Below, one piece after another: positions 1 through 45,788 of a stretch of DNA of 55,014 nt. This DNA is from Acidisarcina sp. (GTDB lineage Bacteria; Acidobacteriota; Terriglobia; Terriglobales; Acidobacteriaceae), in contig DATLIY010000001.1 in assembly GCA_035539175.1 (NCBI GenBank), forward strand, positions 1 through 55,014, written 5' to 3'. The notes under the pieces are model-generated. The model saw only the letters and a list, made by a program, of their open reading frames with translations, was not told the DNA's origin and searched no databases. A program made the translations under genes and the position numbers. The number at the start of each line of letters is the position of its first letter. The first letter of the stretch is position 1.

Positions 1-909
1 GACACCCCAGAGAGCACATATCTCCTCACGTTGAAATTTTCTGGACTCGATAAACTGAGCATCGCGCTGAGAGATAGCAATCGGCTCATACTTCCAATTG
101 CCTGCGACGAAAACGGTCTTACCGGCTGATCCAGATCCAGCACGTTGCTGGTCCCACGAGGTTTTTGCCGTGGTTAGCTCTGCAAGATCGATATCATCCG
201 AGGTGGACATGATGCCGCCGGGATCGCCACCGGTGCCGAAGTAGCTCGCAGCGTATTTCTCAGCGGCCTTAGACAAACCAAGTCCCTGCCGCGCGAGGTC
301 TACCGGGTTGTATCCCTTGAGACCATCGAAACAGAAGAGGGGTACATGGATGATGTCCGCAGGGGCTATCTTGGTTTCGCCGTGAGTGGCCGGGTCCGTG
401 AACACATAGATCAGGTCCTTACCTTTGCGCTTTGGCTCGATATAGCGAGGCGGGATAGGCCATAACGCTACTACTTGTCCCGCTGGATTCCGCTCAATAA
501 GCGCATATCCATTGCCGGTGAGAGCCATAGCTCCGGCCATCGCGTCAAAAAACGTAAAGGCCGTCATCTCCGGGTTTGGCTCCTGCGTGAGCAGGTAGTA
601 GAGCGGATGATCTACAGCCTCGGTGTGGTTCGCACCGTCGATGCTGTACATCTTCGCGGGCATGCCAGCTACACCACTGCCGATGACGCGGATGCAGGCA
701 TAGACAGCGCCGATGCGTAGCGCCGACTCTGTGTTTATCGACTCGCCCGATACTGTGGGGTAGGAGCCAGAGAGTAGCTGGTATGCAGCCGGAGAAGAGA
801 GCGAGACAGCAGGATTTTCAAGCGAGAGGCCCGAGCTGCGCAGGGAGATGGGTGCGGCATCGCGCTCCATCGTGTCGCGTGCTGCTCGAATGGCCGAATA
901 GATACCCAT
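1..909 (-). CDS. HK97-family phage portal protein (C-terminus beyond window)
   Basis: The reading frame opens at an ATG at 909 (MGIYSAIRAARDTME) and stays open for 303 codons to the window edge, so the C-terminal part is missing only because the window ends. The translation carries typical phage portal features: RIGAVYACIRVIGSGVAGMP near residue 80, then FFDAMAGAMALTGNGYALIE, then DIIHVPLFCFDGLKGYNPV and a region ending REEICALWGV. The portal forms the dodecameric ring through which DNA is packaged into the prohead and docks the terminase. It begins 11 nt after the large terminase stop, consistent with a packaging operon. Confidence 0.93.
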   Translation of the reverse strand, partial: MGIYSAIRAARDTMERDAAPISLRSSGLSLENPAVSLSSPAAYQLLSGSYPTVSGESINTESALRIGAVYACIRVIGSGVAGMPAKMYSIDGANHTEAVDHPLYYLLTQEPNPEMTAFTFFDAMAGAMALTGNGYALIERNPAGQVVALWPIPPRYIEPKRKGKDLIYVFTDPATHGETKIAPADIIHVPLFCFDGLKGYNPVDLARQGLGLSKAAEKYAASYFGTGGDPGGIMSTSDDIDLAELTTAKTSWDQQRAGSGSAGKTVFVAGNWKYEPIAISQRDAQFIESRKFQREEICALWGV

Positions 910-920
910 GTGTGTCCTTG

Positions 921-2627
921 CTAGGCGATGAGAAATGAATGTTTTCGTTTGGGTGGCGCGATAGGCACTACCATGCCGCGTGCGAGGGCGGTGAGTGTCG
1001 CGGAGATGCCATCTATCTTCTCCCGGCACTTATCTTTGTCGGGATAAAGTAGTCCAGCCTTGACCCCGGCGACTACATTCGAGGCCATCCAGCGTAGTAC
1101 CGGATTGCCTCCATGTGAGATCTCATGCCGGAGCACCAGCTCCATGATCCGCTTCATGGGCGGATTCATGGATATGGAGCCTTGCCTAACTTGCACTAAT
1201 GTATGTCCGTCAGCGTGAAGGTGCGTGGTGATCTCGCTGGAGTTCCACGGGTCGAACGCTATCTCAGATATGCGATAGATGTCGGCTAGCTGATTGATTT
1301 TCTCGCGCACTGACTGCTGGTCAATTAGATTACCCGGCGTGAGGGTGAATAGTCCCTGACGAGCCCAGATGTCATACGGTACGTGGTCCTTGCGGACACG
1401 TTCGCGGATGTTATCTGCTGGCAGAAAAAAGTGTGGGAGTATGACCCACTTTTCTAGGTCACCTTGTGGCGGGAAAAGTAGGACAAAGGCCGTGATATCA
1501 GTAGTACTTGATAGGTCTAGGCCGCCGAAGCACTGCAGGCCCTTGAGGGCAGCCAGGTCGATGGGATCGCTACATACATCCCACTTATCCATCGGCATCC
1601 ATACACTATGTGACTCAGTCCAGACAGAGAAGTGGAAGCGGAGTACCTCATTCAGCATCGCGGGGGACGACTTACCCTCCATCGCGTGCCGTCTAAGTCC
1701 GGCGATACTCACCGCATGACCCATGGATGGGTTGGCCTTTACCCAGATCGCCTCATTGTCCAGGCAGGCCGATGGGTTTGCCGGATCGAGGTCCTCATCA
1801 TCCAGTCCGCATATCCACCCGAAGCGGGAGTCATCGGGGATGATGCCTAGAAGGACCTTGGTCGTGTACTCACGCTGCGTCCAGCAGACGGAATGCCTAT
1901 CCCATCCACTGTTGGTGATCGCTAGAAGCCATGCCTCAGAGCGTTTCTCAAGGGCAGACCAGAAAGCATTCCATACGTCGGCGGTGGGGTGAAGATGTAG
2001 CTCGTCAAGTACCACGAATGACGGGCGAGACGCCTGAAAGAGCGTCTTCGCCTCTGCACTGCAAGGTACAAACTTCGATCCTGTCGACTTACTGCTTAGA
2101 TTGTTGCGAAAACTCTGGATTCGCTTCGCCAGCGATGGTGATAAGTCCCGCATACGCACGGCAGTGTCAAACACCACCTTCGCCGACTCTTTATCGGTGC
2201 TTGCGGAGTAGACATTTGCGCCTGCGACGCTGATTAACTCATAGATGGCCAGTGCAGAGGCCAGAGTGGATTTTAGGTTGCCTCGACTTATCTCGACATA
2301 GGCGACCTTAAATCGCCTTTGTGAGTTTTCAGCCCACACCCATCCATAAGAGATGTAGAGCAGCGCGGCCATCCAAGGCTCAAGGATGAACGGCTTGCCT
2401 TTGAATTCACCCTCTGTACCGGGAATGAATCGCTCAATAAAATCAATAACTCGCCTGCCGCGAACTGGATCAAATCTAAGACCGCGTGATGGGCCGGATT
2501 CCAGATCTGAAATGTGACGCTCAATCGCTAAGCGGACCCATTTACTGACGACCTGCTTTTCGCAAAGTACATCAGCGATGTATTGTTCAGCCTTGTTGTG
2601 CGGGTTGTGGGAGCTCGCATGAGTCAT
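921..2627 (-). CDS. Phage terminase large subunit
   Basis: 568 residues, normal length for a Terminase_1 family protein. The ATPase half shows the family's altered Walker A (EISRGNLKSTLASALAIYEL, about residues 112-131) and a Walker B with catalytic acid (FVVLDELHLH, about 205-214). The C-terminal half has the nuclease-like stretch CFGGLDLSSTTDITAF and later EIAFDPWNSSEI, which fit the acidic metal-binding residues of the RNase H-like domain. The enzyme pumps and cuts phage DNA at the portal. It overlaps the small subunit gene by 41 nt, so the two are probably translationally coupled. Confidence 0.95.
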   Translation of the reverse strand: MTHASSHNPHNKAEQYIADVLCEKQVVSKWVRLAIERHISDLESGPSRGLRFDPVRGRRVIDFIERFIPGTEGEFKGKPFILEPWMAALLYISYGWVWAENSQRRFKVAYVEISRGNLKSTLASALAIYELISVAGANVYSASTDKESAKVVFDTAVRMRDLSPSLAKRIQSFRNNLSSKSTGSKFVPCSAEAKTLFQASRPSFVVLDELHLHPTADVWNAFWSALEKRSEAWLLAITNSGWDRHSVCWTQREYTTKVLLGIIPDDSRFGWICGLDDEDLDPANPSACLDNEAIWVKANPSMGHAVSIAGLRRHAMEGKSSPAMLNEVLRFHFSVWTESHSVWMPMDKWDVCSDPIDLAALKGLQCFGGLDLSSTTDITAFVLLFPPQGDLEKWVILPHFFLPADNIRERVRKDHVPYDIWARQGLFTLTPGNLIDQQSVREKINQLADIYRISEIAFDPWNSSEITTHLHADGHTLVQVRQGSISMNPPMKRIMELVLRHEISHGGNPVLRWMASNVVAGVKAGLLYPDKDKCREKIDGISATLTALARGMVVPIAPPKRKHSFLIA

Positions 2628-3111
2628 CTGGTGGGTTAACTATCTCTTCCGCGCCGATCTGTGCCATGAATGCCTCGAAAGGATCATCAGCGGTTGTCGG
2701 CTCGACCTGTATGCGGGATCTGGAAGCGGGAGTCATTCCGAACTCGACGAGGAACTTCCGCATGTGATCCAGCGCGGTATTAGCCACGCCCACATAAGGA
2801 TTAGGGACCGGATATCCAGACTTAGGAGACCTGATTACTGCGCCGAACTTCTGCACCTGGGCCTCAGCCTGTGCCCAGCGCGAGTAACTCGCGCAGTAGG
2901 CGGCGAGGGCAGCACGATCGACCTCGGTAAGTAGTCCGAGGGTAACTAATTCAGCGCTTATCCTTCTCCACTCACCCTTTGCGATCCTATCGAGATGCGT
3001 CGGGCATGTGGGAATGCCGGATGGCTTCGGCTCGCGGGAGTTAAGTCGCCGCTTGCCTGGATTACCCTGTAACTGCTTCAGCGCTGTTGGTTTTGGTCGG
3101 CGGCCTGCCAT
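2587..3111 (-). CDS. Phage terminase small subunit, P27 family
   Basis: 174 residues opening with MAGRRPKPTALKQLQGNPGK, a nearly diagnostic start for P27-type small terminases (DNA recognition and regulation of the large subunit). The helical core DRIAKGEWRRISAELVTLGL and AALAAYCASYSRWAQAE fits the family. It overlaps the upstream methyltransferase gene by 50 nt and the downstream large subunit by 41 nt, forming one compact packaging unit. Confidence 0.93.
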   Translation of the reverse strand: MAGRRPKPTALKQLQGNPGKRRLNSREPKPSGIPTCPTHLDRIAKGEWRRISAELVTLGLLTEVDRAALAAYCASYSRWAQAEAQVQKFGAVIRSPKSGYPVPNPYVGVANTALDHMRKFLVEFGMTPASRSRIQVEPTTADDPFEAFMAQIGAEEIVNPPDDSCELPQPAQQG

Positions 3112-4321
3112 GGATTAGTTCTGCTTTCTTACCCGTGAGTGTTTCCCAGCGGTGGACGATTACATCGCAATACGCGGGATCTAATTCCATCCCGTAGCAG
3201 ATGCGACCCTCAGACTCGGCGGCTATAAGAGTCGAACCGGAGCCGAGGAATGGGTCATACACGATGTCACCTCGCTGAGAGTTATTCAGGATTGGCCTGC
3301 GCATACACTCGACAGGTTTTTGTGTGCCGTGTCCTACCCGATCATCTTGCGGGCCGGATGACCTGCCGGTTGGGTTGAGGCTTGCGATATCCCATACCGT
3401 CGATTGCTTGCGGTCGCCATGCCAGTGGCCTGTGCGCCCTTTGCGCACCGCGTACCAACACGGCTCATGCTGCCAGTGGTAATCACCGCGAGAGAGGACG
3501 CCCTGCTGCTTACGCCAGATAACTTGTGATCGGATCTGAAATCCACCTACACTCAGGCTGTCTGCGACAACTCCAGCGTGAAGTGCACCGTGCCAGATGT
3601 ATGCGACGTCCCCGGGGAACAGAGCCCACGCTTCGCGCCAGTCGGCACGATCATCGTTCTCGACCTTGCCACGCTGCTGTACCGGAGCGGTAGAGAATCC
3701 ACCCTTGCCGTCACGCCATGTCGGATCGTATGCGACTCCATAAGGCGGGTCGCTCACCATCAGATGAGGCTTGGCACCGTCGAGCAGGTAATCTACATCG
3801 GTGGCGACCGTGCTATCACCGCACAGCAAGCGATGCTTGCCGAGCAGGTACAGATCACCGCGTACCGTCACCGGCGCTGTGGGGACATCTACCTCCGCGT
3901 CCTCGCCTTCATGCTCTTCCGGTGGGAGGATGTTGTGCAGTTCGGCATCGGTAAAGAACGGCTGCAGGTCTAACTCGCCGGATAAGTTCTTGAGAACTTC
4001 TGGATCCCACTCCAAGCCCAATTCTGCTGTGCGGTTATCCGCGATGGCCAAGCCACGAGCCTTGGGGTCGTCCAGGCTGAGATCCATGCGCTGCACGGCG
4101 ACTATTTTAGTTCCGTCGGTCGGCACGACGATGACATCGTCGATGCCTGCAGTGGCGGCCTGCTCAATGGTCTTGTTTCCGGCGATCAAGCGACCGTCGC
4201 GGTCAATGAGAACTGAACGACCAGCACCGTACTCCTGTAGTGACTTGGCGACCGCAGCGCGTCCACGCTTGGTGCCTTTATTTGCATTGCGGTCATCGGA
4301 TTTAAGGTCGGCAATCTTCAA
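3062..4321 (-). CDS. Phage ParB-like / DNA methyltransferase fusion
   Basis: 419 residues. Residues 1 to about 90 resemble a ParB/Srx-like N-terminal domain (GRLIAGNKTIEQAA, followed by ALAIADNRTAELG). The rest is a beta-class amino-methyltransferase: catalytic motif DPPYGVAYD near residue 195 precedes the AdoMet-binding motif DPFLGSGST near residue 370. DPPY is compatible with N6-adenine or N4-cytosine methylation; the target cannot be read from sequence. Such genes sit next to terminases in many prophages and probably protect phage DNA from restriction. The start is a TTG (codon 1 AAG ATT GCC GAC follow) with no strong ribosome-binding site. The end overlaps the small terminase. Confidence 0.92.
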   Translation of the reverse strand: MKIADLKSDDRNANKGTKRGRAAVAKSLQEYGAGRSVLIDRDGRLIAGNKTIEQAATAGIDDVIVVPTDGTKIVAVQRMDLSLDDPKARGLAIADNRTAELGLEWDPEVLKNLSGELDLQPFFTDAELHNILPPEEHEGEDAEVDVPTAPVTVRGDLYLLGKHRLLCGDSTVATDVDYLLDGAKPHLMVSDPPYGVAYDPTWRDGKGGFSTAPVQQRGKVENDDRADWREAWALFPGDVAYIWHGALHAGVVADSLSVGGFQIRSQVIWRKQQGVLSRGDYHWQHEPCWYAVRKGRTGHWHGDRKQSTVWDIASLNPTGRSSGPQDDRVGHGTQKPVECMRRPILNNSQRGDIVYDPFLGSGSTLIAAESEGRICYGMELDPAYCDVIVHRWETLTGKKAELIHGRPPTKTNSAEAVTG

Positions 4322-4459
4322 AGTTATTCAATACCTCGATCGACTATTTCGCGGTTGCGTACGCGACAGCCATGCTTACGGTCTGGTAACTCGCGCCTTT
4401 TGAACAACTTAGGGGCCATACCCCCTATGACAGCACCATTCTATGGAACTGTGTAAAAT

Positions 4460-4825
4460 TTACTCACCTGCTCGGGTACGGATGGAGTGATGCCGCTCGC
4501 ACAGGCTCAGTAGGTTGGCGGGGTCGAGGCGACGAGAGGGGTCGAGACGGACGCGGACGAGGTGGTGTACCTGCTCTGCCGGTGTAGCTATGCCAGCGAT
4601 GAGACAGTCTGCACAGAGGGGATGCTCCCGCATGTGCCGGAGACGGAGACGAGCCCAGGCATCGTCATACCCCCGAGACCATGCTGAGCCACGGGCTCTG
4701 TCAGATATCCGCTGTGACTCTCTGAGGTAGGTCCTACGCACGATAGTGTGGTCCGGGCAATAGCCCGAGGCGACGAGCACAGGGCATCCGTAGTGGGCAC
4801 AAGGACGAAGTGGTGATGTCGGCAT
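4460..4825 (-). CDS. Phage HNH endonuclease
   Basis: About 121 residues from the chosen ATG (MPTSPLRPCAHYGCPVLV); an upstream in-frame ATG at 4882 would add 19 residues without homology-like character, and neither has a clear ribosome-binding site. An N-terminal zinc-knuckle-like set (CAHYGCP, YCPDH) is followed by HPLCADC and the nuclease core VHHLVRVRLDPSRRLDPANLL and CERHH, a typical HNH fold. HNH proteins next to terminases act with them in genome cleavage and packaging of cos-type HK97-like phages; that role is inferred here from position. Confidence 0.88.
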   Translation of the reverse strand: MPTSPLRPCAHYGCPVLVASGYCPDHTIVRRTYLRESQRISDRARGSAWSRGYDDAWARLRLRHMREHPLCADCLIAGIATPAEQVHHLVRVRLDPSRRLDPANLLSLCERHHSIRTRAGE

Positions 4826-4882
4826 AGATACCAGTAGAGAGGAGGCCCGATGGCCAGCCGCAGGAGGAGGATGTGGGGCCAT

Positions 4883-5076
4883 CGGGAGGCGTCGCGGTGG
4901 AGAGGGTAGAGCAGCGACGGCAGGAGAGATGTCTCATCTATGCGATGAGCGATGAGCTACATGCTAGTAGCATGCATGGTAAAAATGTGCCGGACTATTT
5001 TTTCAGGGGTGCTAATGCACGAAGGCCGGTACCGGCTCGGTCCTATATCTGCCCTCTATAGATTAGTCGGCTGAAA
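4883..5076 (-). promoter_or_regulatory. Phage intergenic region with palindromes; possible late promoter
   Basis: This gap lies downstream of the sigma-factor gene and upstream of HNH and the packaging genes. It contains a perfect palindrome CATGCTA-G-TAGCATG (4960-4974), a 12-bp palindrome GCCGGTACCGGC (5025-5036) and a GTGC-TAAT-GCAC hairpin (5010-5021). At 5055-5071 (minus strand) GCCGACTA is joined to ATCTATAGA, words that also occur in the 9930 element. I infer a sigma-dependent or repressor-controlled late promoter region; no transcription start can be proved from sequence. Confidence 0.4.
5055..5071 (-). promoter_or_regulatory. Partial copy of phage promoter-like element
   Basis: Read on the minus strand, GCCGACTAATCTATAGA resembles the CCGACTA...ATCTATAGA part of the plus-strand element at 9930-9971. 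It lies just after the sigma-factor stop codon and points toward HNH and terminase. The match is short, so chance is possible. Confidence 0.3.
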
Positions 5077-5592
5077 CTACCCAGATACATCGGTCTTTTT
5101 TATCTCCGCTGTCAGCCTCTGTACCTTAGACCGCGCAGCTATCTCCGAGATCCCTAGCTCATCAGCTACACCAGCGACGGTAGCACCGGGTAGACACAGC
5201 AGACGGTATAGATCGCCATAGGTGGCGCGTAGAGCCACCGGTAGAGTAGGTGGGAGGTAAGGATGCATATCCGGGTCACCGTCTCCACAGAGGGCATGCT
5301 GAGCTATCTCAGGGAGCTCTACATATCGGCACTCGACCCTCTGCATATCGATGATGCGACGATGCACGATGCGAGAAAACCAAGTAGAAAATCTAGAGCG
5401 GCCGGAATAGCTGTCCAGAGACTGCCATGCTGAGATGGCAGCCTCCTGAGCTATGTCATCGCTCTGCGAGGTATCTGCTCGTGACATCTGCCTAGCATAT
5501 GCCACGCAGTCAGCCAGTAGGGAGTTTAGGGTCTCAGCGGTGGCTGAGACCCGATAGGTGGCGTAGGACGCATCTAGCTGCGTGCTAGTCAT
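5077..5592 (-). CDS. Phage-encoded sigma-70-like factor
   Basis: 171 residues with a two-domain ECF-like layout. Region 2 is visible as DDIAQEAAISAWQSLDSY then RFSTWFSRIVHRRIIDMQR (about residues 45-85). Region 4 is a helix-turn-helix, ATVAGVADELGISEIAARSK (about 138-157). The start has a strong GGGAGGT site 5 nt before ATG and overlaps the upstream gene by 8 nt. Its place directly before the HNH, methyltransferase and terminase genes suggests it turns on late genes, as small sigma-like regulators do in other phages. No anti-sigma gene is seen. Confidence 0.85.
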   Translation of the reverse strand: MTSTQLDASYATYRVSATAETLNSLLADCVAYARQMSRADTSQSDDIAQEAAISAWQSLDSYSGRSRFSTWFSRIVHRRIIDMQRVECRYVELPEIAQHALCGDGDPDMHPYLPPTLPVALRATYGDLYRLLCLPGATVAGVADELGISEIAARSKVQRLTAEIKKTDVSG

Positions 5593-5833
5593 GGGTACCT
5601 CCCTCGTATGTGTGATAGCCAGCCTCAGATATCTCAGCCATCTCGTCGGGAGAGACTACCCGGAGCATGGGGGTAGCCCTAGTGTGCGAGCGGATACCCT
5701 GCCAGGTGGGGATGATCACCTGCGCATACTCTAGGCCACACACATAGGCCAGCATGAGATGAGCGTCAGGCCGCAGAGAGAGAGCCGTCTGTAGCGTAGG
5801 GGGAGCGGTAGGGGTGTCAGAGGGACTAGACAT
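5585..5833 (-). CDS. Small phage protein, unknown
   Basis: 82 residues starting MSSPSDTPTAPPTLQTALSL. The start is fixed by AGGAGGT five bases before the ATG at 5833; a longer in-frame version from 5881 would begin with a histidine/serine-rich stretch lacking a site. Not recognised. It is a soluble, mildly acidic protein. It overlaps both the previous gene and the sigma factor by 8 nt, so it belongs to the same early transcript. Confidence 0.75.
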   Translation of the reverse strand: MSSPSDTPTAPPTLQTALSLRPDAHLMLAYVCGLEYAQVIIPTWQGIRSHTRATPMLRVVSPDEMAEISEAGYHTYEGGTHD

Positions 5834-5996
5834 GCGACACCTCCTGTTGTGGCTGTGGCTGTGGCTCGACAGGGGGGGCATAGTGAGCCGTGAGCTGCCG
5901 GAGTAGCTCCTCAGCCTCGCGCAGCCTGATCAGGGTCTCTATCAGGCTGCTACGCAGCGCTATCTCATAGGTGGCGGGGGTGAAGGAGCTACTCAT
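5826..5996 (-). CDS. Very small phage protein, unknown
   Basis: 56 residues, MSSSFTPATYEIALRSSLIE onward, with one amphipathic helical stretch (LIETLIRLREAEELLRQLTA) and a Pro/Gln-rich tail (PPVEPQPQPQQ). The ATG follows GGGGGTG and overlaps the preceding stop by 8 nt (ATGAGTAG), the same junction type used by its neighbours. The helix could form a coiled coil. No function can be assigned. Confidence 0.65.
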   Translation of the reverse strand: MSSSFTPATYEIALRSSLIETLIRLREAEELLRQLTAHYAPPVEPQPQPQQEVSHV

Positions 5997-6276
5997 GTGA
6001 CACCCCCGGACGGACGATATAGAGACGAGACCGGGACGGGGCTGCTGTCTCCTTAGCTGCCCGTCGGGCAGCAGACCCGGCAGCCAGGTATCGGGACCAC
6101 ATATCTCGCAAAGAGGCCCACTGCTTGAGCGTCTCCTCATGAGATTTTTTGTCCTGAATCGCGAGACCCAATAAAAAAATCTCATGCGCTAGTGGACCGA
6201 CTAGACGGTCCTGCTCGGTAGCCGGGTACCCCGGCATTATGCTGTGGCTGGGAACTATCGTCGAGATAAACTCCAT
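5989..6276 (-). CDS. Small phage protein, unknown
   Basis: 95 residues, MEFISTIVPSHSIMPGYPAT onward, with a GGAGGT site 5 nt before the ATG. A central helical region (PLAHEIFLLGLAIQDKKSHE) is followed by a basic, alanine-rich tail. It is the first gene after the promoter-like element at 6326-6358, so it probably heads the transcript running through the sigma factor. No family recognised. Confidence 0.75.
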   Translation of the reverse strand: MEFISTIVPSHSIMPGYPATEQDRLVGPLAHEIFLLGLAIQDKKSHEETLKQWASLRDMWSRYLAAGSAARRAAKETAAPSRSRLYIVRPGVSHE

Positions 6277-6325
6277 GTGCTACCTCCAGAGGTCCTCTGA
6301 CATCAGGAGCCTCTGTATAAGGGGT

Positions 6326-6358
6326 CCCGTAGTCGGTTTTTACACTCATTGCTGTTTT
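6326..6358 (-). promoter_or_regulatory. 33-nt repeated phage control element, copy B
   Basis: On the minus strand this reads AAAACAG, then TGAGTG, then AAAAACCGACTAC, and matches 29 of 33 bases of the plus-strand copy at 9930-9962. A TATACA box follows 10 nt downstream. It sits 50 nt upstream of the gene starting at 6276, so it is placed as a promoter or operator. Confidence 0.6.
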
Positions 6359-6428
6359 GGTCCTCTGGAGGGCTAATACCGGCGGAGGGAGGGGTGCGGC
6401 GGAATGGGGGTGGGGGGATACTCCCCCC

Positions 6429-7730
6429 TCACCTCACATACCTCTTCCAGGCTGGCTCGGAGGAGCGGATGCAGGAGCAGGGAGCTAGTGTCTGCACCCT
6501 CTCCTCAGGATGGTACCGTATGGTCCCGACGTAGTCGGTGGATACGACCCCGGTACCCTTGCACTTGGGGCAGGTCTTATCCACCAAGCGGGTAGTCTGG
6601 GTCATCTCCCCGGACAGGTACCAGTTGGCCTCAGCATTGATTTGCTTAGCCATCGTGGGTAGAGCCCGGGTCAGCTCAGGGAGGGACTTTATCCTGCCTG
6701 CAGGGTTATCCCGCCAGTAATGCTCCTGCAGGTCAGGAGACATCCAATGGTAGGAGACTATCCGACGGACCCCCCGCCAGTCATACTCTCCGACGGGATC
6801 CCGGTTCTCCATAGCAAAAGTAAGAGGGTCCCATGCTTTTGGCTGGGCAGGTACCTTCTGTGGCTGGGCAGGAGATACCTCAGTTTGAGCAGGTACCTTC
6901 TGTGGCTGGGCAGGAGATACCTCAGTTTGAGCAGATACCTTCTGTGGCTGGGCAGGAGATACCTCAGTTTGAGCAGATGTGTTTTTGCTGTTGCTCTTGC
7001 TGTTGCTGTTGCTGTTGCTCTTGCTGTTGCTCTTGCTGTTGCTTTTGTCTTTAAGAAAAAAAGTAGCAACATTACCCTGTCTCTGTGCAGGACTACCTAG
7101 TTCCACCCCTGCTGGCGGAGTAGCTGTCTCTGTCTTTGTTTCTTTCTTCTTCTCCTTCTCCTTTTTGTATATGTCGACAAAAAAGGGGGTCGTCGTGTCG
7201 CTGACAGCGACAAAAGGAGGGGTCGTCGTGTCGCTGTCAGCGACACTGGTGTCGCTGAGGTGTCGCTGAGGTGTCACTGAGGGTGTACCAAAGGTGAACC
7301 TACCACCACCCAGATCCTGTATCTGTCCCTCACTGAGGTCATTGGATCGCTCCCGGTAGATTGGGTTAACCACATCCTTTGTGTCCCCCACGGACAGGTA
7401 TTTACCCGCCAGAGGTCCATCTGTGATGCGGTACTTGTCTAGCAGGATGGCATAGGGTCCTACTTTCCCCTTATGCACCTCCCGCTTGATGTACCCACTC
7501 TCCTCCAGATTTTTTAGGCTCCGCTGGAGTGTTCGGACGTTTACCTCCGGGGCCATCATATTCAGATATCCCGCACACCCCCAGTACACCCCCGTCTTGC
7601 GGTCCGCCAGCAGGAGCAGTAGGTTAAACACGGCAAACTCATTTAGACCCATTCGCCCCCGCTCTAGATGGGAGACGAGGTTTCTTCGGACCTGCACATA
7701 TCCATTGTCCGTTGCGTCGTTCACAAACAT
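6429..7730 (-). CDS. Phage replication initiator-like protein (winged helix, low-complexity linker)
   Basis: 433 residues. The N-terminal 110 or so (MFVNDATDNGYVQVRRNLVS through LQRSLKNLEESGYIKREVHK) form a winged helix like the DNA-binding part of phage replication proteins of the O/DnaD kind. Residues of about 215-310 are low complexity: a Ser-Asn/Lys repeat then three copies of a 14-residue unit around AQTEVSPAQPQKV. The C-terminal part has a zinc-binding set, CPKCKGTG and later APCSC. It has a strong AGGAGGT site and overlaps the helicase gene by 10 nt. I infer it marks the phage origin and loads the helicase encoded beside it. Confidence 0.75.
   Translation of the reverse strand: MFVNDATDNGYVQVRRNLVSHLERGRMGLNEFAVFNLLLLLADRKTGVYWGCAGYLNMMAPEVNVRTLQRSLKNLEESGYIKREVHKGKVGPYAILLDKYRITDGPLAGKYLSVGDTKDVVNPIYRERSNDLSEGQIQDLGGGRFTFGTPSVTPQRHLSDTSVADSDTTTPPFVAVSDTTTPFFVDIYKKEKEKKKETKTETATPPAGVELGSPAQRQGNVATFFLKDKSNSKSNSKSNSNSNSKSNSKNTSAQTEVSPAQPQKVSAQTEVSPAQPQKVPAQTEVSPAQPQKVPAQPKAWDPLTFAMENRDPVGEYDWRGVRRIVSYHWMSPDLQEHYWRDNPAGRIKSLPELTRALPTMAKQINAEANWYLSGEMTQTTRLVDKTCPKCKGTGVVSTDYVGTIRYHPEERVQTLAPCSCIRSSEPAWKRYVR
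6841..6976 (-). repeat. 42-bp in-frame tandem repeat
   Basis: Units of 42 bp begin at 6862, 6904 and 6946 with a shortened copy at 6841-6861 and another at the right end; they differ by single bases. They encode 14-residue Ala-Gln-Pro-rich units in the linker of the replication protein. The high identity suggests recent slippage or unequal exchange. Confidence 0.95.
6985..7044 (-). repeat. Hexanucleotide repeat TTGCT(G/C), ten units
   Basis: Ten consecutive hexamers TTGCTG or TTGCTC (last one TTGCTT) encode the alternating Ser-Lys/Ser-Asn stretch of the replication protein. Unit number is a multiple of three bases, so length change keeps the frame. Confidence 0.95.
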
Positions 7731-9232
7731 TTTGCCACCTCCTCAGGAGACTCATAGGGGTTTATCCCCATCTGGATATCCCGCACATCTGCTGCCTGCT
7801 CCGGTGTCAGCTCCCGCACACAGCGCGAGGTAGGATCCACATGCACGTCAAAAAACTCGAATCCAAGTCCGGATCGAGGTGGCTTGGGCAGGGAAATCCG
7901 CATCGTGTTTGTTTCCTTGAGCGGACCTCGGAACCACACCCCTAACACCACATCCATACCTTGACTAGCAGCAGAGAATGTATCTACCGCGTTGCAGTCT
8001 CGATAGCACCCCCATAGCTGGTCATCCTCATCTTTGTCCGCCGCAGAGAAGCCCGCCCTATTGGACTGTAGTGGGGTGACACAGACGACCTCCTCATGAT
8101 TCGCGAAGGCTTGTAGCCTTTTGAAGTCGCGGCTGTGGGCTGCGACTTCTTCGCTTGTATTTTTAAACTCGACCCCCATTAAGGCTACATAGTCGATGCA
8201 GATGACGTTGTACCGTTTGCGCGTACGGTGAGTGTGATAGTGCTCCAGCACATCATCCAGAGTCTCAGCATGGGTGCACTCAATGGAACCTGCCATCGCG
8301 TGCCGGAATCTGTCGAAGAGGGTGTCTTTAGCCAGTACCCCCTCTGCGGAGATGGTATCCGGCTGAGTCTCCCAGTCATTGAGGCTGGGTAGGTCCAGCA
8401 CCCATGGATCTACACGTGGGTCTATATAGGCGGCGTAGGTCCAGATCATCGTAGCCATCGCCTTTTCGGGTGTCTCCTCACAGGGCACAAATAGGACCCT
8501 AGCCCCCTGAACCGCAAAGTGGACCATCAGAGATTTACAAAAAGTTGATTTTCCGCTGCCGGTGTACCCCAGCACTCCGATCCACCGCAGATTTTTTGGA
8601 CCTATGACCATCCGCGTATCAATAGAAGGTAGGCCTGTTAAAAACCTATCCCCCTGCTCCCTCCTGAGGATCGCGTCAAGGTTATCTGATATCTCCTCGC
8701 TGGCCTCGATGATGTCTCCCTCTATCCCCCGAAACCCGGGAGTAATAGGATCCTCAGCAGCCCGCTTTCTTACAAAGGCCATTGCATCGACCACACCCCG
8801 GGGTGCATCTCCACCCTTTTTCTCATCTGGCACACGACCGGTCGCGATATTTATTCCGTGCTGGAAAGTTTTCTCAAAATAACTGACACGACCCTGATTG
8901 ATCATGTTCACTGTTAGGACTTCGGCGTCGGCCACTCCATCCGGGTCACCAGTCTCTACGAGACTTAGATTCTCCACGATGAGGATCCAGCGATTCCCAT
9001 ATTCTGACCGTGCGGTCCCAAACTCTCTCAGATCGGCGATGCTGGTGGGGCACTTTTTCATCTGCTCAATAAAGTCGAGACATAAGCTCAGTGCAGGTAC
9101 ACCTGCATCGTCGACCAGACTCTTGATGGCCCACCTCAGATTGGGGGTGTAGTCCCGGATCGTATCGTATGGCTGCTGCTTGATGATGGCTGCTATGAGG
9201 TGGTGGCTAGGATCCCAGTTAGTTGCCTGCAT
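7721..9232 (-). CDS. DnaB-like phage replicative helicase
   Basis: 503 residues. The C-terminal RecA-like core has Walker A GVLGYTGSGKSTFCKS (about residues 220-235), a conserved acid after it (VLFVPCEETPEKAM), Walker B NVICIDYVALMG and the downstream QSNR motif (VVCVTPLQSNRAG). The N-terminal 180 residues match the expected helical primase-interaction region only loosely. It would unwind phage DNA as a hexamer. An AGGAGGT site precedes the ATG. Overlaps of 14 and 10 nt join it to the genes on either side. Confidence 0.9.
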   Translation of the reverse strand: MQATNWDPSHHLIAAIIKQQPYDTIRDYTPNLRWAIKSLVDDAGVPALSLCLDFIEQMKKCPTSIADLREFGTARSEYGNRWILIVENLSLVETGDPDGVADAEVLTVNMINQGRVSYFEKTFQHGINIATGRVPDEKKGGDAPRGVVDAMAFVRKRAAEDPITPGFRGIEGDIIEASEEISDNLDAILRREQGDRFLTGLPSIDTRMVIGPKNLRWIGVLGYTGSGKSTFCKSLMVHFAVQGARVLFVPCEETPEKAMATMIWTYAAYIDPRVDPWVLDLPSLNDWETQPDTISAEGVLAKDTLFDRFRHAMAGSIECTHAETLDDVLEHYHTHRTRKRYNVICIDYVALMGVEFKNTSEEVAAHSRDFKRLQAFANHEEVVCVTPLQSNRAGFSAADKDEDDQLWGCYRDCNAVDTFSAASQGMDVVLGVWFRGPLKETNTMRISLPKPPRSGLGFEFFDVHVDPTSRCVRELTPEQAADVRDIQMGINPYESPEEVAKCL

Positions 9233-9641
9233 TGGTCACCTCCTGTGCTGGCTGAGCGGGGGTGGGGTTTTCGGGGATGCCATGCATCTCCCTAATCCGC
9301 ATAAAACGGAACTCATCCGCTATGAGGTCCTTTATCTGCTGGGCTGTGAGTATCTCCGGCTCATGCTGTGGGTCTCGCAGGGTGTAGGTGGTCATCATCC
9401 TCTGGGTGCCCGCTGACCTGACTTCCCCTCTCCCGAGGAGGCCTAGCTTGACGAGGCTGCGGATACAGCGCTCGGTGTGCTCCGGCTTACCACCCACCGT
9501 GGAGTGGACCTCTGCACTGGTGGCCTCGCCACGATACATATATATAGCTGCGATGATCATCCGCTCTGTGGGCGTCAGCTTATTTTTCAAAATCGACAAT
9601 ACTGTCTGCCGTTCTTTTTCCTGAATCCATCCTGTTTTCAT
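9219..9641 (-). CDS. Phage winged-helix-like protein, unknown role
   Basis: 140 residues from MKTGWIQEKERQTVLSILKN. The start at 9641 is chosen because AGGAG lies 8 nt upstream; the frame extends to 9746 but that part lacks a site. The region LTPTERMIIAAIYMYRGEAT followed by TERCIRSLVKLGLLGRGEV looks like a winged helix. It is the first gene of the replication operon, so it may be a DNA-binding regulator or replication accessory protein. It is not a recognisable CI or Cro protein. Confidence 0.7.
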   Translation of the reverse strand: MKTGWIQEKERQTVLSILKNKLTPTERMIIAAIYMYRGEATSAEVHSTVGGKPEHTERCIRSLVKLGLLGRGEVRSAGTQRMMTTYTLRDPQHEPEILTAQQIKDLIADEFRFMRIREMHGIPENPTPAQPAQEVTNAGN

Positions 9642-10035
9642 TTTGTTATCTCCTGTGTGCCCATAGTTGGGTCTTTGTCTAATACTGCTGCTGTGGTTGT
9701 TTCGACCGGATAGGTCGAAGAATTTCTTCTCGCTACATAGGAGCAAGTGGTAGTTCGAAATTCTCGTTACATGTGTTTTAGGGGTGGGGGTGGCTCAGAG
9801 GTGCATAAACAGGGGAGATACGGGTAGTTGGGGAATGTAACAAGAAAAGGAATCCAGGAAGGGGCTGAAATTATTTTTATTTATTCTGAAGAATTTGTGC
9901 GTCAGGTCGGTATTAGTCCCCAGATGGCAAAAACAGTAGTGAGTGAAAAAACCGACTACCGGATCTATAGATATACGGGCTGCCCAGATGACAGCTCACA
10001 CCACTCACGCAGCAGACACCACAGGAGGATACGCC
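9642..10035. other. Phage control region between replication operon and integrase
   Basis: About 390 bases without a supported gene, separating the minus-strand replication operon from the small plus-strand ORF. It contains the 33-nt element (9930-9962) followed by ATCTATAGATATAC, an AT-rich stretch near 9870-9890, and short purine-rich tracts. No repressor gene could be found. The region is a reasonable place for divergent early promoters. Confidence 0.5.
9930..9962 (+). promoter_or_regulatory. 33-nt repeated phage control element, copy A
   Basis: AAAACAG, TGAGTG and AAAAACCGACTAC occur in the same order and spacing as in copy B (6326-6358, minus strand), with four differences in 33 bases. 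TATAGAT follows at 9966-9972, a possible -10 box. The element points toward the small ORF starting at 10,036. Confidence 0.6.
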
Positions 10036-10182
10036 ATGACCACACGCACCGTAGGAGGATACGCCATGTACGCAGAGACGATGGACAGAGAGATCCGTAT
10101 CACCCCACAGCAGGAAGCTCACCGGCGCTCAATGACCCTTCGTATGTGGGCTTCATTGAGATCCGGTACCCATGGGGCATAG
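10036..10182 (+). CDS. Small plus-strand phage ORF with duplicated start signal
   Basis: 48 residues (MTTRTVGGYAMYAETMDREI onward) or 38 from a second start at 10,066. The 16-nt block AGGAGGATACGCCATG occurs at 10,023-10,038 and again at 10,053-10,068, giving two in-frame starts each with an ideal ribosome-binding site. The 3' 64 nt run antisense to the integrase end. It is the only plausible plus-strand gene of the prophage part and lies 74 nt after the copy A element. The size would fit an excisionase or Cro-like protein, but no motif supports that. Confidence 0.5.
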   Translation: MTTRTVGGYAMYAETMDREIRITPQQEAHRRSMTLRMWASLRSGTHGA

Positions 10183-11393
10183 TGCTTGCGAATCGTGGTG
10201 GTATCAACATGCCCCATCATGGTAGCCACCTCCTCGGGTCTTTGCCCGGCTCGCAACTGCCAAACGGCAAATGTGTGGCGAAACTGCTTTATGTTCGCCG
10301 GTTTCGTCTTCGGCCTGCCTCGGCTATCGAGCGTCGGCAGGATCACATACTTTACCCCCGACGCCTTTATGCACCGCATGAGCCGCTCCGTCCACATCTT
10401 CCTGTCCCCCAATATGCGGGGGTTGTCACTACGGAAGGGCATCGTGGGCTGGTACCCCGGAGGCAGTGGGATCGATGTGAGCTGCTGGGCCACCTCCTCG
10501 GAAATAGGAATGACGGCGTTGCCCTTGGTTTTTTGCCGGGCATAGGTGTACACCGGGATGCGCCGTCCATCGAGCACCACCCACGTGATATTGTCCGGCT
10601 GAAATTTTATGGCATCCATGATGTCGCATCCGGTATTGAGCAGCAAGGTAAGCAGCGACGACAGGCGCTCGACGAACATCCCCTGCTCACACTGCTGCAC
10701 ATGCCGGGGAGAGGCAGTGGCCACCGCAGCGGTGATCTTCTCGATCTGCTCATCGCTATAAGGACCCTGCACCAGATCGGCATCCGGCTTGATCGGCTTG
10801 ATCGCTGCAATGGGGCTCTCCTTGAGCACCTTGCGCTCGACCAGATAGCGGAAAAAACTCCGCAGGATGCTCCAGCGGTTCTGGCGCGTGCTCATCGCCA
10901 GACGGCTCCACTTGGGGGAGGAGTACCAGCGCTCCATCGCTATCGTGGTGATCTCCTGAATGTATTGAACCCCATGCTCATCAGCCCACTCCTGTAGCTG
11001 ACGCATCTGTGTCCGGTAAAGTTGGGTCGTGGTCCCCAGCTCGGACCCGGCCCGGAGGCTTCGGGAGATCCAGAGTTCCCCGGCTTCTTTTACCGTCACG
11101 AGTTGCGCGGCTTCCTCTTCCGTGAGCTTGCGAGAGGCGGCGATCTCCGGGTCATAGCCATGCAACACATGAGACGCAATTCGCTGCGCCTCCGCCCATG
11201 ATGGCGTGTTGAGAGTTCTTCGGAGCATCTTCCCGCCCCGGGGGTTCTCATAAATCCATTTGGGACAGGAGCAGGAGTTGTATTCCGGCTCCGCCAGATG
11301 AGAGCATGTAGTGATATGTCTGGTGTAAACCCGCACACTCCCGAAGGCACTCTTGCTGATCGTCATGACTCGGTACTCTCTCCGAGCCATCAT
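10119..11393 (-). CDS. int: Tyrosine recombinase (phage integrase) with unusual active site
   Basis: About 424 residues. The N-terminus has a Cys/His cluster (TRHITTCSH and CSCPKWIYE) often seen in acidobacterial integrases, then a SAM-like core-binding domain and a C-terminal catalytic domain. FRHTFAVWQL, ATMMGHVDTTTIRKHYAPW give the second Arg, the third-box His and the Tyr nucleophile. The first catalytic Arg position reads TGCDIMDAI (Asp where TGLRISEAL has Arg) and the His before FRHTF is Lys. The start is unsure: GTG 11,420, ATG 11,393 or ATG 11,366, none with a clear ribosome-binding site. Confidence 0.87.
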   Translation of the reverse strand: MMARREYRVMTISKSAFGSVRVYTRHITTCSHLAEPEYNSCSCPKWIYENPRGGKMLRRTLNTPSWAEAQRIASHVLHGYDPEIAASRKLTEEEAAQLVTVKEAGELWISRSLRAGSELGTTTQLYRTQMRQLQEWADEHGVQYIQEITTIAMERWYSSPKWSRLAMSTRQNRWSILRSFFRYLVERKVLKESPIAAIKPIKPDADLVQGPYSDEQIEKITAAVATASPRHVQQCEQGMFVERLSSLLTLLLNTGCDIMDAIKFQPDNITWVVLDGRRIPVYTYARQKTKGNAVIPISEEVAQQLTSIPLPPGYQPTMPFRSDNPRILGDRKMWTERLMRCIKASGVKYVILPTLDSRGRPKTKPANIKQFRHTFAVWQLRAGQRPEEVATMMGHVDTTTIRKHYAPWVPDLNEAHIRRVIERR

Positions 11394-11436
11394 AGACTGT
11401 TTTGTACACCCTTGGTACACGAAATTTTTACAGTCT
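11394..11436. repeat. Inverted repeat at integrase 5' end, possible att or operator
   Basis: AGACTGT (11,394-11,400) and ACAGTCT (11,430-11,436) form an inverted repeat around two direct copies of GTACAC (11,404-11,409 and 11,415-11,420). The position between the integrase start and host DNA suits integrase arm sites or an operator. Identity as attachment site is not shown. Confidence 0.4.
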
Positions 11437-11528
11437 TATAACTTATGTGTTTTCAATAGTTTAGGACTTCAAGGGGCCGTACGAAGAGTACGTCTCCGCA
11501 ACCAGCACCGCCAGCTAAGAGGCCCGCT

Positions 11529-13340
11529 TTGACGCCGATCTTGAATGGGCAGGGGTTGGAGAAGCGCTTTGGCGCGACAACCCTCTTCCAGAACATCAGT
11601 TTTGTTGTTTCCGAGGGCGACCGCATCGGCGTGATCGGCCCAAATGGCTCCGGCAAATCGACGCTCCTCGGTATTCTGGCTGGCGAAATCGAGGTCGATA
11701 GCGGAGAACTCTCACGGCGCAAACATACCCGGCTGAGCTATGTAGCACAGGTATCCGAATTCGCTCCCGGACAGACGCCTCGCTCGGTATTGCAGGATGC
11801 CTTGAAGAAGGCGCATGTACCTGAAGCGGAGTGGGAGGCGCGGATTGCCGAAACCCTTGGCCGCGCGGGGTTTGAGGAATTCGATACCGAGGCGGTTACA
11901 TATTCCGGAGGCTGGCGGAAGCGGCTGGCGATTGCACAGGCGCTGGCTGTAAAGGCCGATGTCCTGCTGCTGGACGAGCCGACAAACCATCTGGATCTGG
12001 CGGGCATTGAGTGGCTGGAAGGCCTGCTGGCCACTGCCCCATTTGCCTGCGTCGTGGTGAGCCACGACCGGTACTTCCTCGAAAATGTCGCCACAGAGAT
12101 GGTCGAGTTGAACCGCACCTATCCCAACGGCCTGCTGCGGGTGGCTGGAAATTACAGTCAATTTCTGGAAAAGAAGGAAGAGTTTCTGGAGACGCAGGCA
12201 AAGCGCCAGGATGCGCTGGAAAATCGCGTCAAACGTGAGATGGAGTGGCTCCGCCGCGGCCCCAAAGCGCGAACCACCAAGAGCAAGGCCCGCATCGACA
12301 AGGCGAATGAGTTGATTGGAGAGCTGGCTGAGCTAGGCGCGCGCCGCAGCACCTCATCGGCTGGAATCGACTTTACCGCCACCGAGCGCCAGACCAAGAG
12401 ACTCGTCGAAGTAGAAGCACTAAGCTACACAATTGGGGAGCGCACGCTCTTCCAGAACCTCAACTTCGCAATCCTCGCCGGAATGCGTGTCGGCCTGGTT
12501 GGACCCAACGGCAGCGGCAAAACAACACTGCTTCGGCTGCTCCGGGGAGAGGTAGAACCGGCCAGCGGGGATATCCGCCGCGCTAATTCCCTGCGTATCG
12601 TCTATTTCGATCAGAACCGCGTGCTCGATCCCGATGTAACCCTGCGCCGCGCACTCGCACCTGACAGCGACTCGATCGTCTACCAGGACCGCGTGATTCA
12701 TGTCGCGTCGTGGGCCTCGCGCTTCCTCTTTACCGGCGAGCAATTGAACCAGCCTGTTGGGCGACTCTCCGGCGGCGAGAGAGCGCGCGTGCTCATCGCC
12801 AATCTTATGCTGCAGCCGGCTGACCTTCTTCTTCTGGACGAGCCGACCAATGATCTCGACATCCCCACGCTTGAGATTCTGGAAGAAAGCCTGCTGGAGT
12901 ATCCCGGCGCGTTAGTGCTGGTTACGCATGATCGCTATCTGCTCGACCGCATTTCGACCACGGTACTGGGCCTGGATGGTATCGGCTCGATCGAGCGTTT
13001 TGCGGATTATCCGCAATGGGAGGCGTGGCAGGCGGAGCGCAAGCAGGCGAAAAATAAAAGCACTAACCCTTCCACCACACGCACTGCCTCACCTACGCCA
13101 GCGCCGCTGCCGGCCAAAAAGAAGCTGGCCTACCTGGAAGCGCGCGAATATGCCGAGATCGAAGACCGCGTCGCGAAAGCGGAAGAGGTTCTGCAACAAT
13201 GGCGGGCAACGCTGGAAGACCCTGCGGTCGCAATTGACGCCGTGCGCTTGCAGGAGGCGCTGGCTCAGTCCGAGCGGGCACAGCATGAGGTCGATGCTCT
13301 CTATGCCCGCTGGGCCGAACTGGAAGCGAAACAGAACTAG
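11529..13340 (+). CDS. uup: ABC-F family ATPase, Uup type
   Basis: 603 residues. Two ABC domains: Walker A GPNGSGKST (37-45) and GPNGSGKTT (about 325-333), signatures YSGGW and LSGGE, Walker B LLLDEPTNHL and LLLDEPTNDL. The linker RVKREMEWLRRGPKARTTKS matches Uup, and the last 70 residues are a charged coiled coil (EIEDRVAKAEEVLQQW) like the Uup C-terminal domain. No membrane segments, so it is a ribosome-acting or DNA-linked ABC-F protein, not a transporter. It starts at TTG with AAGAGG 6 nt upstream. The frame is open upstream to 11,460, right against the prophage edge. Confidence 0.92.
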   Translation: MTPILNGQGLEKRFGATTLFQNISFVVSEGDRIGVIGPNGSGKSTLLGILAGEIEVDSGELSRRKHTRLSYVAQVSEFAPGQTPRSVLQDALKKAHVPEAEWEARIAETLGRAGFEEFDTEAVTYSGGWRKRLAIAQALAVKADVLLLDEPTNHLDLAGIEWLEGLLATAPFACVVVSHDRYFLENVATEMVELNRTYPNGLLRVAGNYSQFLEKKEEFLETQAKRQDALENRVKREMEWLRRGPKARTTKSKARIDKANELIGELAELGARRSTSSAGIDFTATERQTKRLVEVEALSYTIGERTLFQNLNFAILAGMRVGLVGPNGSGKTTLLRLLRGEVEPASGDIRRANSLRIVYFDQNRVLDPDVTLRRALAPDSDSIVYQDRVIHVASWASRFLFTGEQLNQPVGRLSGGERARVLIANLMLQPADLLLLDEPTNDLDIPTLEILEESLLEYPGALVLVTHDRYLLDRISTTVLGLDGIGSIERFADYPQWEAWQAERKQAKNKSTNPSTTRTASPTPAPLPAKKKLAYLEAREYAEIEDRVAKAEEVLQQWRATLEDPAVAIDAVRLQEALAQSERAQHEVDALYARWAELEAKQN

Positions 13341-45740: not shown

Positions 45741-45788
45741 CATACAAGGAAGAGGCCTGGCATTTTCGCCAGGCCTCTTCCTTGTATG
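45741..45788. terminator. 21-bp perfect hairpin, bidirectional terminator
   Basis: Positions 45,741-45,761 and 45,768-45,788 are perfectly complementary, with a 6-nt loop (ATTTTC). The core is AAGGAAGAGGCCTGGC. It lies between the convergent GH31 and DUF4914 genes and can act on both strands, though there is no long T-tract. Confidence 0.85.

Follow-up and report, generated by a model that had tools for sequence, protein, structure and literature searches.

The window analysed here is one whole contig (C1) of 55,014 nt, from an assembly of 3.9 Mb in 13 contigs. The right-hand end of an integrated prophage covers positions 1-11,492. The prophage genes are read leftward, in the order integrase, winged-helix protein, helicase, rep, sigma-factor operon, HNH nuclease, DNA methyltransferase, terminases and portal (Table 1); a small terminase subunit gene is presumed to belong to the series. 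The methyltransferase (3062-4321), which lies beside the terminase, has a ParB-like N-terminal part (phrog_498, phrog_620). The phage is temperate, and its integrated form carries both copies of the repeated element described below.

Table 1. Annotated features of the prophage part of the window, by position.
Feature	Positions	Strand	Basis
ECF-type sigma factor of 171 aa that may read the element	5077..5592	-	Pfam, PHROGs, NCBIfam, predicted fold
Third small operon gene, 82 aa, 8-nt overlap with both neighbours	5585..5833	-	open frame with ATG
Second small operon gene, 56 aa, 8-nt overlap with the first	5826..5996	-	open frame with ATG
Opening gene of the sigma-factor operon, downstream of copy B; 95 aa, ATG preceded by GGAGG	5989..6276	-	open frame
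Copy B, points left, 152-nt gap between rep and sigma-factor operon	6325..6381	-	self-blastn, gapped alignment
rep, replication initiator-like protein	6429..7730	-	phrog_428 1.8e-4, phrog_186 0.0017
DnaB-like helicase	7721..9232	-	phrog_19 1.1e-16
Winged-helix protein (140 aa) that opens the replication operon; rival candidate for reading the element	9219..9641	-	Pfam HTH_27 1.3e-4, 22.6 vs cut-off 22.2 bits
Copy A, 57-column element, points right, gap between replication operon and integrase 3' end	9908..9963	+	self-blastn, gapped alignment
Possible small ORF behind copy A, 48 aa, AGGAGG site	10036..10182	+	open frame
Tyrosine integrase	10119..11420	-	phrog_1 7.4e-31; Pfam Phage_integrase above its cut-off
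Presumed attachment core (attR), 30 bp	11463..11492	.	identical stretch at G000:C13:6195-6224

The right end of the prophage is set by the 30-bp core that the window has in common with contig C13, and positions 1-6224 of C13 look like the other end of the prophage. On C13 the core lies near the 3' end of a host ATPase gene that we read from its sequence as ABC-F type; a frame just after the core in the window could be the original end of that gene. The first 141 bp of contigs C1 and C12 are identical and fall within a portal gene (window 1-141, G000:C12:1-141), and the one capsid family sought in the assembly turned up on C9 alone, suggesting that the middle of the prophage is missing from the assembly. 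The genome holds two related prophages, whose common structural part was apparently collapsed and lost from the assembly. The cousin on C12 has portal and terminase in common with the prophage of the window (72.9% identity over 1.9 kb).

The sigma-factor operon (6276-5077) consists of four genes, each overlapping the next by 8 nt, with the sigma gene last. Its first product had no family above cut-off (Pfam listed DinB_2 below cut-off and nothing else, and PHROGs and NCBIfam had no match), and a longer reading of the third small gene (5585-5881) was without family in the same three libraries. No significant family was found for the possible ORF at 10036-10182. Around the start of this ORF (10017-10068), two 22-nt copies lie 30 nt apart, each comprising an AGGAGG site and an ATG, and the two ATGs share a frame. 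An inverted repeat, TTTCGACC-GGATA-GGTCGAAG, lies at 9700-9720, upstream of the winged-helix gene; it gives a terminator-like match and is a candidate operator.

A sequence-only reading of the window had pointed out a 33-nt element present at 9930-9962 (plus strand) and 6326-6358 (minus strand), with 29 of 33 bases identical, and this was confirmed. A degenerate 33-mer with up to 3 mismatches, itself written from both copies, matched the window exactly twice, at copies A and B, and did not match any of 100 shuffles. The similarity extends past the 33-mer by 22-23 nt on the 5' side and 1 nt on the 3' side, giving 57 columns over which A and B are 84.2% identical with one 1-nt gap. In a blastn comparison of the window against itself the pair reached a raw score of 65 (E 5.3e-9), compared with a best off-diagonal score of 44 in 20 shuffled windows. 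The repeat is therefore far beyond chance. It is the top dispersed repeat pair of the window, and only a tandem repeat in rep and a self-matching hairpin at 45741-45788 scored higher. The edges of the block are sharp (the scores of the 3' and 5' flanks were reached by 263 and 401 of 1000 shuffles, respectively), and conservation is nearly even across the 57 columns, not concentrated in two short boxes.

Both copies are wholly intergenic, in a prophage part where gaps account for 1,044 of 11,492 nt (9.1%). They are inverted and face outward, flanking a three-gene replication block of about 3.6 kb (winged-helix protein, helicase, rep). The distance from copy B to the first gene of the sigma operon is 48 nt, and that from copy A to the next ORF (10036) is 72 nt. 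We also considered that the copies might be the starts of small paralogous proteins (KTVVSEKTDYR and KTAMSVKTDYG). Just one frame is open in both copies; the two differ there in 6 of 14 codons, each time non-synonymously. The absence of synonymous changes and the unrelated flanks led us to reject the coding reading, and they support conservation at the DNA or RNA level, not of a peptide, for an element that lies outside genes and is oriented to the next gene.

By its matches, the product of 5077-5592 is a phage-encoded, ECF-type sigma factor. Sigma-70 region 2 was found by Pfam (Sigma70_r2, PF04542, 1.1e-12, 48 bits against a cut-off of 24), and the protein also matched phrog_1740 ("RNA polymerase sigma factor", 4.7e-10) and the NCBIfam sigma70-ECF model TIGR02937 (53 bits against a cut-off of 42.9). 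A profile made from this protein and the sigma factor of a sister prophage (see below) matched solved ECF factors, with CnrH as the best match (3.9e-8). The first 11 matches of the predicted fold were likewise ECF factors, none of them at E < 0.001 with this low-confidence model (two sequences, mean pLDDT 65); sigma-E (1or7_B), for example, was matched with probability 1.00 and E 0.04. Region 4 gave no Pfam match at E 0.1. The phrog_1740 and SigZ models align to residue 166, the latter far below its cut-off, and helices are predicted at residues 119-168 in the same model of mean pLDDT 65. In the sigma factor of the sister prophage, Sigma70_r4_2 was found below cut-off.

The sequence-only reading had held that no repressor is recognisable in the window and that the regulator may be new. 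Pfam and PHROGs indeed named no repressor among the prophage proteins scanned, but the sigma factor and the winged-helix protein are both recognisable, and an unknown regulator is therefore not required. Relatives of the winged-helix protein were found in one of two genomes of the genus, namely the prophage's own. No anti-sigma gene was recognised, and none was identified next to the sigma gene.

The same reading had placed a TATA-like box after each copy. By eye, hexamers (TAGATA, TTATAC) do occur at the same offset, but no sigma-70-type promoter, with TTGACA-like and TATAAT-like boxes at a spacing of 16-18 nt, matched at A or B. Within 4300-12000, three sites of this type were seen and 4.0 were expected. 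A known ECF -35/-10 pair was not recognised in the block either.

A partial third copy, proposed at 5055-5071 in front of the packaging genes (CCGACTA followed by ATCTATAGA, minus strand), did not hold up: 59 of 500 shuffles and 56 of 870 strand-tiles elsewhere in the window attained the same gapped score, and it was absent from the match list of a profile built from A and B. There was no significant copy of the element before the packaging genes, with most structural genes lying beyond the window and the stretches read. A weak look-alike of the 3' half of the element directly before the winged-helix gene (9659-9683, minus strand) was rejected. It ranked fourth in the whole window for a 21-column matrix, but a host site scores as high (9.4 against 9.3); it was fifth for an 18-column matrix, and the A and B profile did not list it.

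A search of the rest of the prophage and of related phages had been suggested along with the element; it recovered A and B in the assembly, but no further copy stood out. The 20-nt core with up to 3 mismatches had four matches in the 3.9 Mb, namely A, B and two 3-mismatch matches on other contigs, and a reversed control pattern had two. Many unrelated copies in host DNA, which would have spoken against the element, were thus not seen in this assembly. When the 63 nt around A were searched against 300 genomes of the family, four matched: the prophage's own genome (both copies) and three others. In these three, 21-26 nt were matched at E of about 0.008 each, and about three such matches are expected by chance from 300 genomes; no copy stands out in the 299 other genomes of the family. 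Exact patterns of the element had 0 matches in IMG/VR, and a comparison with 50,697 phage records gave a single match of 21 nt (E 0.6) that lies outside the block. The cousin prophage on C12 had no significant match to the element. Further copies could sit in the part of the prophage that seems to be missing from the assembly.

One related prophage was found in the searchable data. This sister prophage (L135) lies in genome G263 and is also IMG/VR record 649633002; the two sequences do not differ in the 11,000 nt that were compared. Its helicase, rep and sigma factor are 22%, 30% and 33% identical to those of the window prophage, and the order helicase, rep, sigma, HNH, TerS, TerL, portal is kept, with other genes interspersed. 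The sigma gene is thus in the same place, between the replication and packaging genes. The element had no match above shuffles in L135 DNA. L135 has a motif of its own, CGCTARYTA, which occurs three times in 20 kb, each time on the same strand and in front of a gene, in one case the sigma gene. This motif is marginal (11 of 200 shuffles attained the best pair score among 11 upstream regions), and as a parallel to the element it is suggestive only. Between rep and sigma, L135 also encodes a protein that looks TIR-like (9324-10247, PHROG 13899, function unknown).

Other searches for relatives yielded little. In IMG/VR, helicase, sigma and integrase led to no relatives. For the terminase there were at least 600 matching stretches; 80 loci were retained from these, many with packaging genes in common. 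None of the 80 had a sigma match at E 0.001, and a profile of our own for the sigma factor gave one weak match (L059, E 0.0068). One terminase locus, L021, had no matching early region, and no sigma factor was found in the C12 cousin by profile search. Searches with two-row alignments, one for helicase and one for rep, brought up the sister prophage and nothing else. In a database of genome contigs there was nothing for the helicase, and the sigma alignment retrieved one sigma gene from Planctomycetota (L147). The phage records contained two distant helicases and one partial sigma match, and the sister's sigma factor matched two Enterococcus phages there at 28%.

Among bacterial genomes, the helicase matched 3 of 300 of the family, including its own; one match (G049) was read as a host KaiC-like gene and discarded. 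The sister helicase matched 4 of 397 genomes of the order (G227 and G311 weakly), and rep 4 of 396 genomes of the phylum (G443 and G467 weakly and with internal stops). At E 0.001 the sigma factor matched 381 of the 397 genomes of the order, as hosts commonly carry ECF factors. The flanks of six sigma matches were fetched and five annotated. Only that of G263 was a prophage, and no phage genes were seen in the other four; the sixth (L140) was searched by tblastn and profile only.

Taken together, these observations lead us to favour, tentatively and at somewhat less than an even chance, the reading that A and B are phage-specific promoters, that the sigma factor encoded at 5077-5592 is their most likely reader, and that copy B autoregulates the sigma operon. 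We consider promoters the most likely reading because a low-copy, conserved gap element upstream of a phage sigma operon is what is found in phages 7-11 and phiEco32. The lack of a sigma-70-type match at A and B is expected if another sigma factor reads them, and the intergenic position of both copies and the kept place of the sigma gene in the sister prophage also speak for this reading. What counts against promoters is that there are two copies only, that conservation is even over 57 columns and that no significant site exists on the packaging side; a late promoter before the packaging genes would be expected if these were driven by the sigma factor. Further points against it are the failure to recognise an ECF -35/-10 pair, the sister prophage's lack of a match to the element and the marginal state of its own motif, the unmatched region 4 and the low confidence of the fold model.

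We infer the following course of events. The sigma factor would read A and B as cis-acting sites of transcription control. Once a little of it is made, copy B would amplify its production, and RNA polymerase started at B would continue toward the HNH, methyltransferase, terminase and portal genes. Copy A would fire the opposite way, over the possible small ORF, giving a transcript antisense to the integrase gene. Upon induction, the integrase could then be turned down simultaneously with the activation of B.

Autoregulated promoters are a general feature of bacterial ECF sigma factors. The putative site directly upstream of the sigma operon resembles them in its position, but differs in that no -35/-10 pair was recognised and no adjacent anti-sigma gene was identified. 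Among phages, phiEco32 is lytic. Guzina and Djordjevic describe the promoters of phage sigma factors in 7-11 and phiEco32 as few, well conserved and located upstream of the sigma gene, and state that they escape motif searches by multiple alignment and are found by pairwise alignment of gaps (PMC4331800). According to the same source, the sites of 7-11, a lytic phage, are about 12 nt long (TG-TGATGT-TATA), late promoters were found, and both phages carry an anti-sigma (PMC4331800). The prophage studied here shares with 7-11 and phiEco32 a sigma factor of its own, few conserved sites in gaps, one site upstream of the sigma gene or operon, and their detection by pairwise comparison of gaps. It differs from 7-11 in that the element spans 57 columns of unrelated sequence, with no TGATGT (extended -10) in either block, and from both phages in being temperate, with no late promoter found and no anti-sigma recognised.

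Other sources touch on the same subject. For ECF factors of bacteriophages, an extended -10 element without recognisable -35 was reported (PMC5333181). The ECF factor of Privateer has homologs in phiEco32-like phages, and no clear anti-sigma candidate is reported for it (PMC7881722). Sigma factors of the sporulation type are known in temperate phages (PMC9429907). In passages of a study of Acidobacteriota prophages, the term "sigma factor" is absent (PMC5900883). A limited literature search, which is not proof, found no paper on a temperate phage run by an ECF factor and nothing in print on the regulation of this prophage. Promoters of phage ECF-type sigma factors are already known as a kind, to which the present pair, if such promoters, would likely add.

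Alternatively, the blocks could be operators, that is, sites of a phage repressor or activator (the winged-helix protein or rep) that controls host-polymerase promoters flanking the replication block. This is possible but doubtful. The winged-helix gene adjoins copy A, a long, even block with sharp edges suits a protein site with multiple contacts, and lysogeny usually needs a repressor, none of which was named among the scanned proteins. However, neither block contains 6-nt inverted half-sites, the single 6-nt direct repeat of A (AAAAAC) is missing from B, and the host-polymerase promoters that such operators would control have no sigma-70-type match at either copy. The family assignment of the winged-helix protein is itself barely over cut-off, and its relatives were sought in two genomes only. 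The stoperators of mycobacteriophage L5 are asymmetric repressor sites, many and short. Like them, the element is a non-palindromic site repeated between genes in both orientations, but here there are two long copies, and no such repressor was recognised.

It is unlikely that the blocks act as RNA leaders, in which the 5' part of the block (CCTCCAGAGG in B) would base-pair with the next gene's ribosome-binding site and thereby gate translation. Folding gave this reading some support in B, where only 1 of 200 shuffles of the 121-nt leader folded as well (z -2.68) and a 10-bp pairing covers the GGAGG of the gene at 5989. The leader of A (150 nt) was less distinct, with 12 of 200 shuffles as good (z -1.70), and its CC-rich part pairs with the AGGAGG ahead of 10036. 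However, A does not retain the long pairing of B, and the blocks taken alone have no folding advantage over shuffles, 69 and 191 of 200 of which folded as well. Most of the conserved letters lie outside the pairing, and Rfam had no match in 1-12000 up to E 1.

A structural or mobile repeat without a role in transcription, left at the two ends when the 3.6-kb replication cassette was once inserted, or else used as sites in replication, is improbable as well: the inverted copies exactly flank the winged-helix, helicase and rep genes, and their conservation is even with sharp edges, but none of the three enclosed genes is transposase-like, the related prophage keeps the helicase-rep order without these repeats, inspection by eye revealed no target duplication in the 15 nt on the outer side of each block, and the searches of the assembly and the family genomes brought up no further copy.

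Returning to promoters read by the phage sigma factor, one can go further and suppose that an ECF sigma factor serves as the lysis-lysogeny switch in place of a classical repressor, with A and B read by the same sigma factor. B would then be a self-amplifying promoter for sigma and the late genes and A the source of an antisense transcript across the integrase, so that a single protein would commit the phage to lysis and shut off re-integration at once. We regard this extension as very unlikely. From a temperate phage built on an ECF-type sigma factor one could learn how a switch of this kind is compatible with lysogeny, and one phage sigma factor with two candidate promoters forms a compact, testable pair.

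The rep gene between the two copies contains further repeats. Three repeat copies at 42-nt spacing, followed by 12-nt repeats, lie at 6844-7047 and could be an origin of replication located within the initiator gene. Such a location of the origin is known from lambda. A long palindrome with perfect arms of 18 nt is present at 7195-7246, also inside rep.
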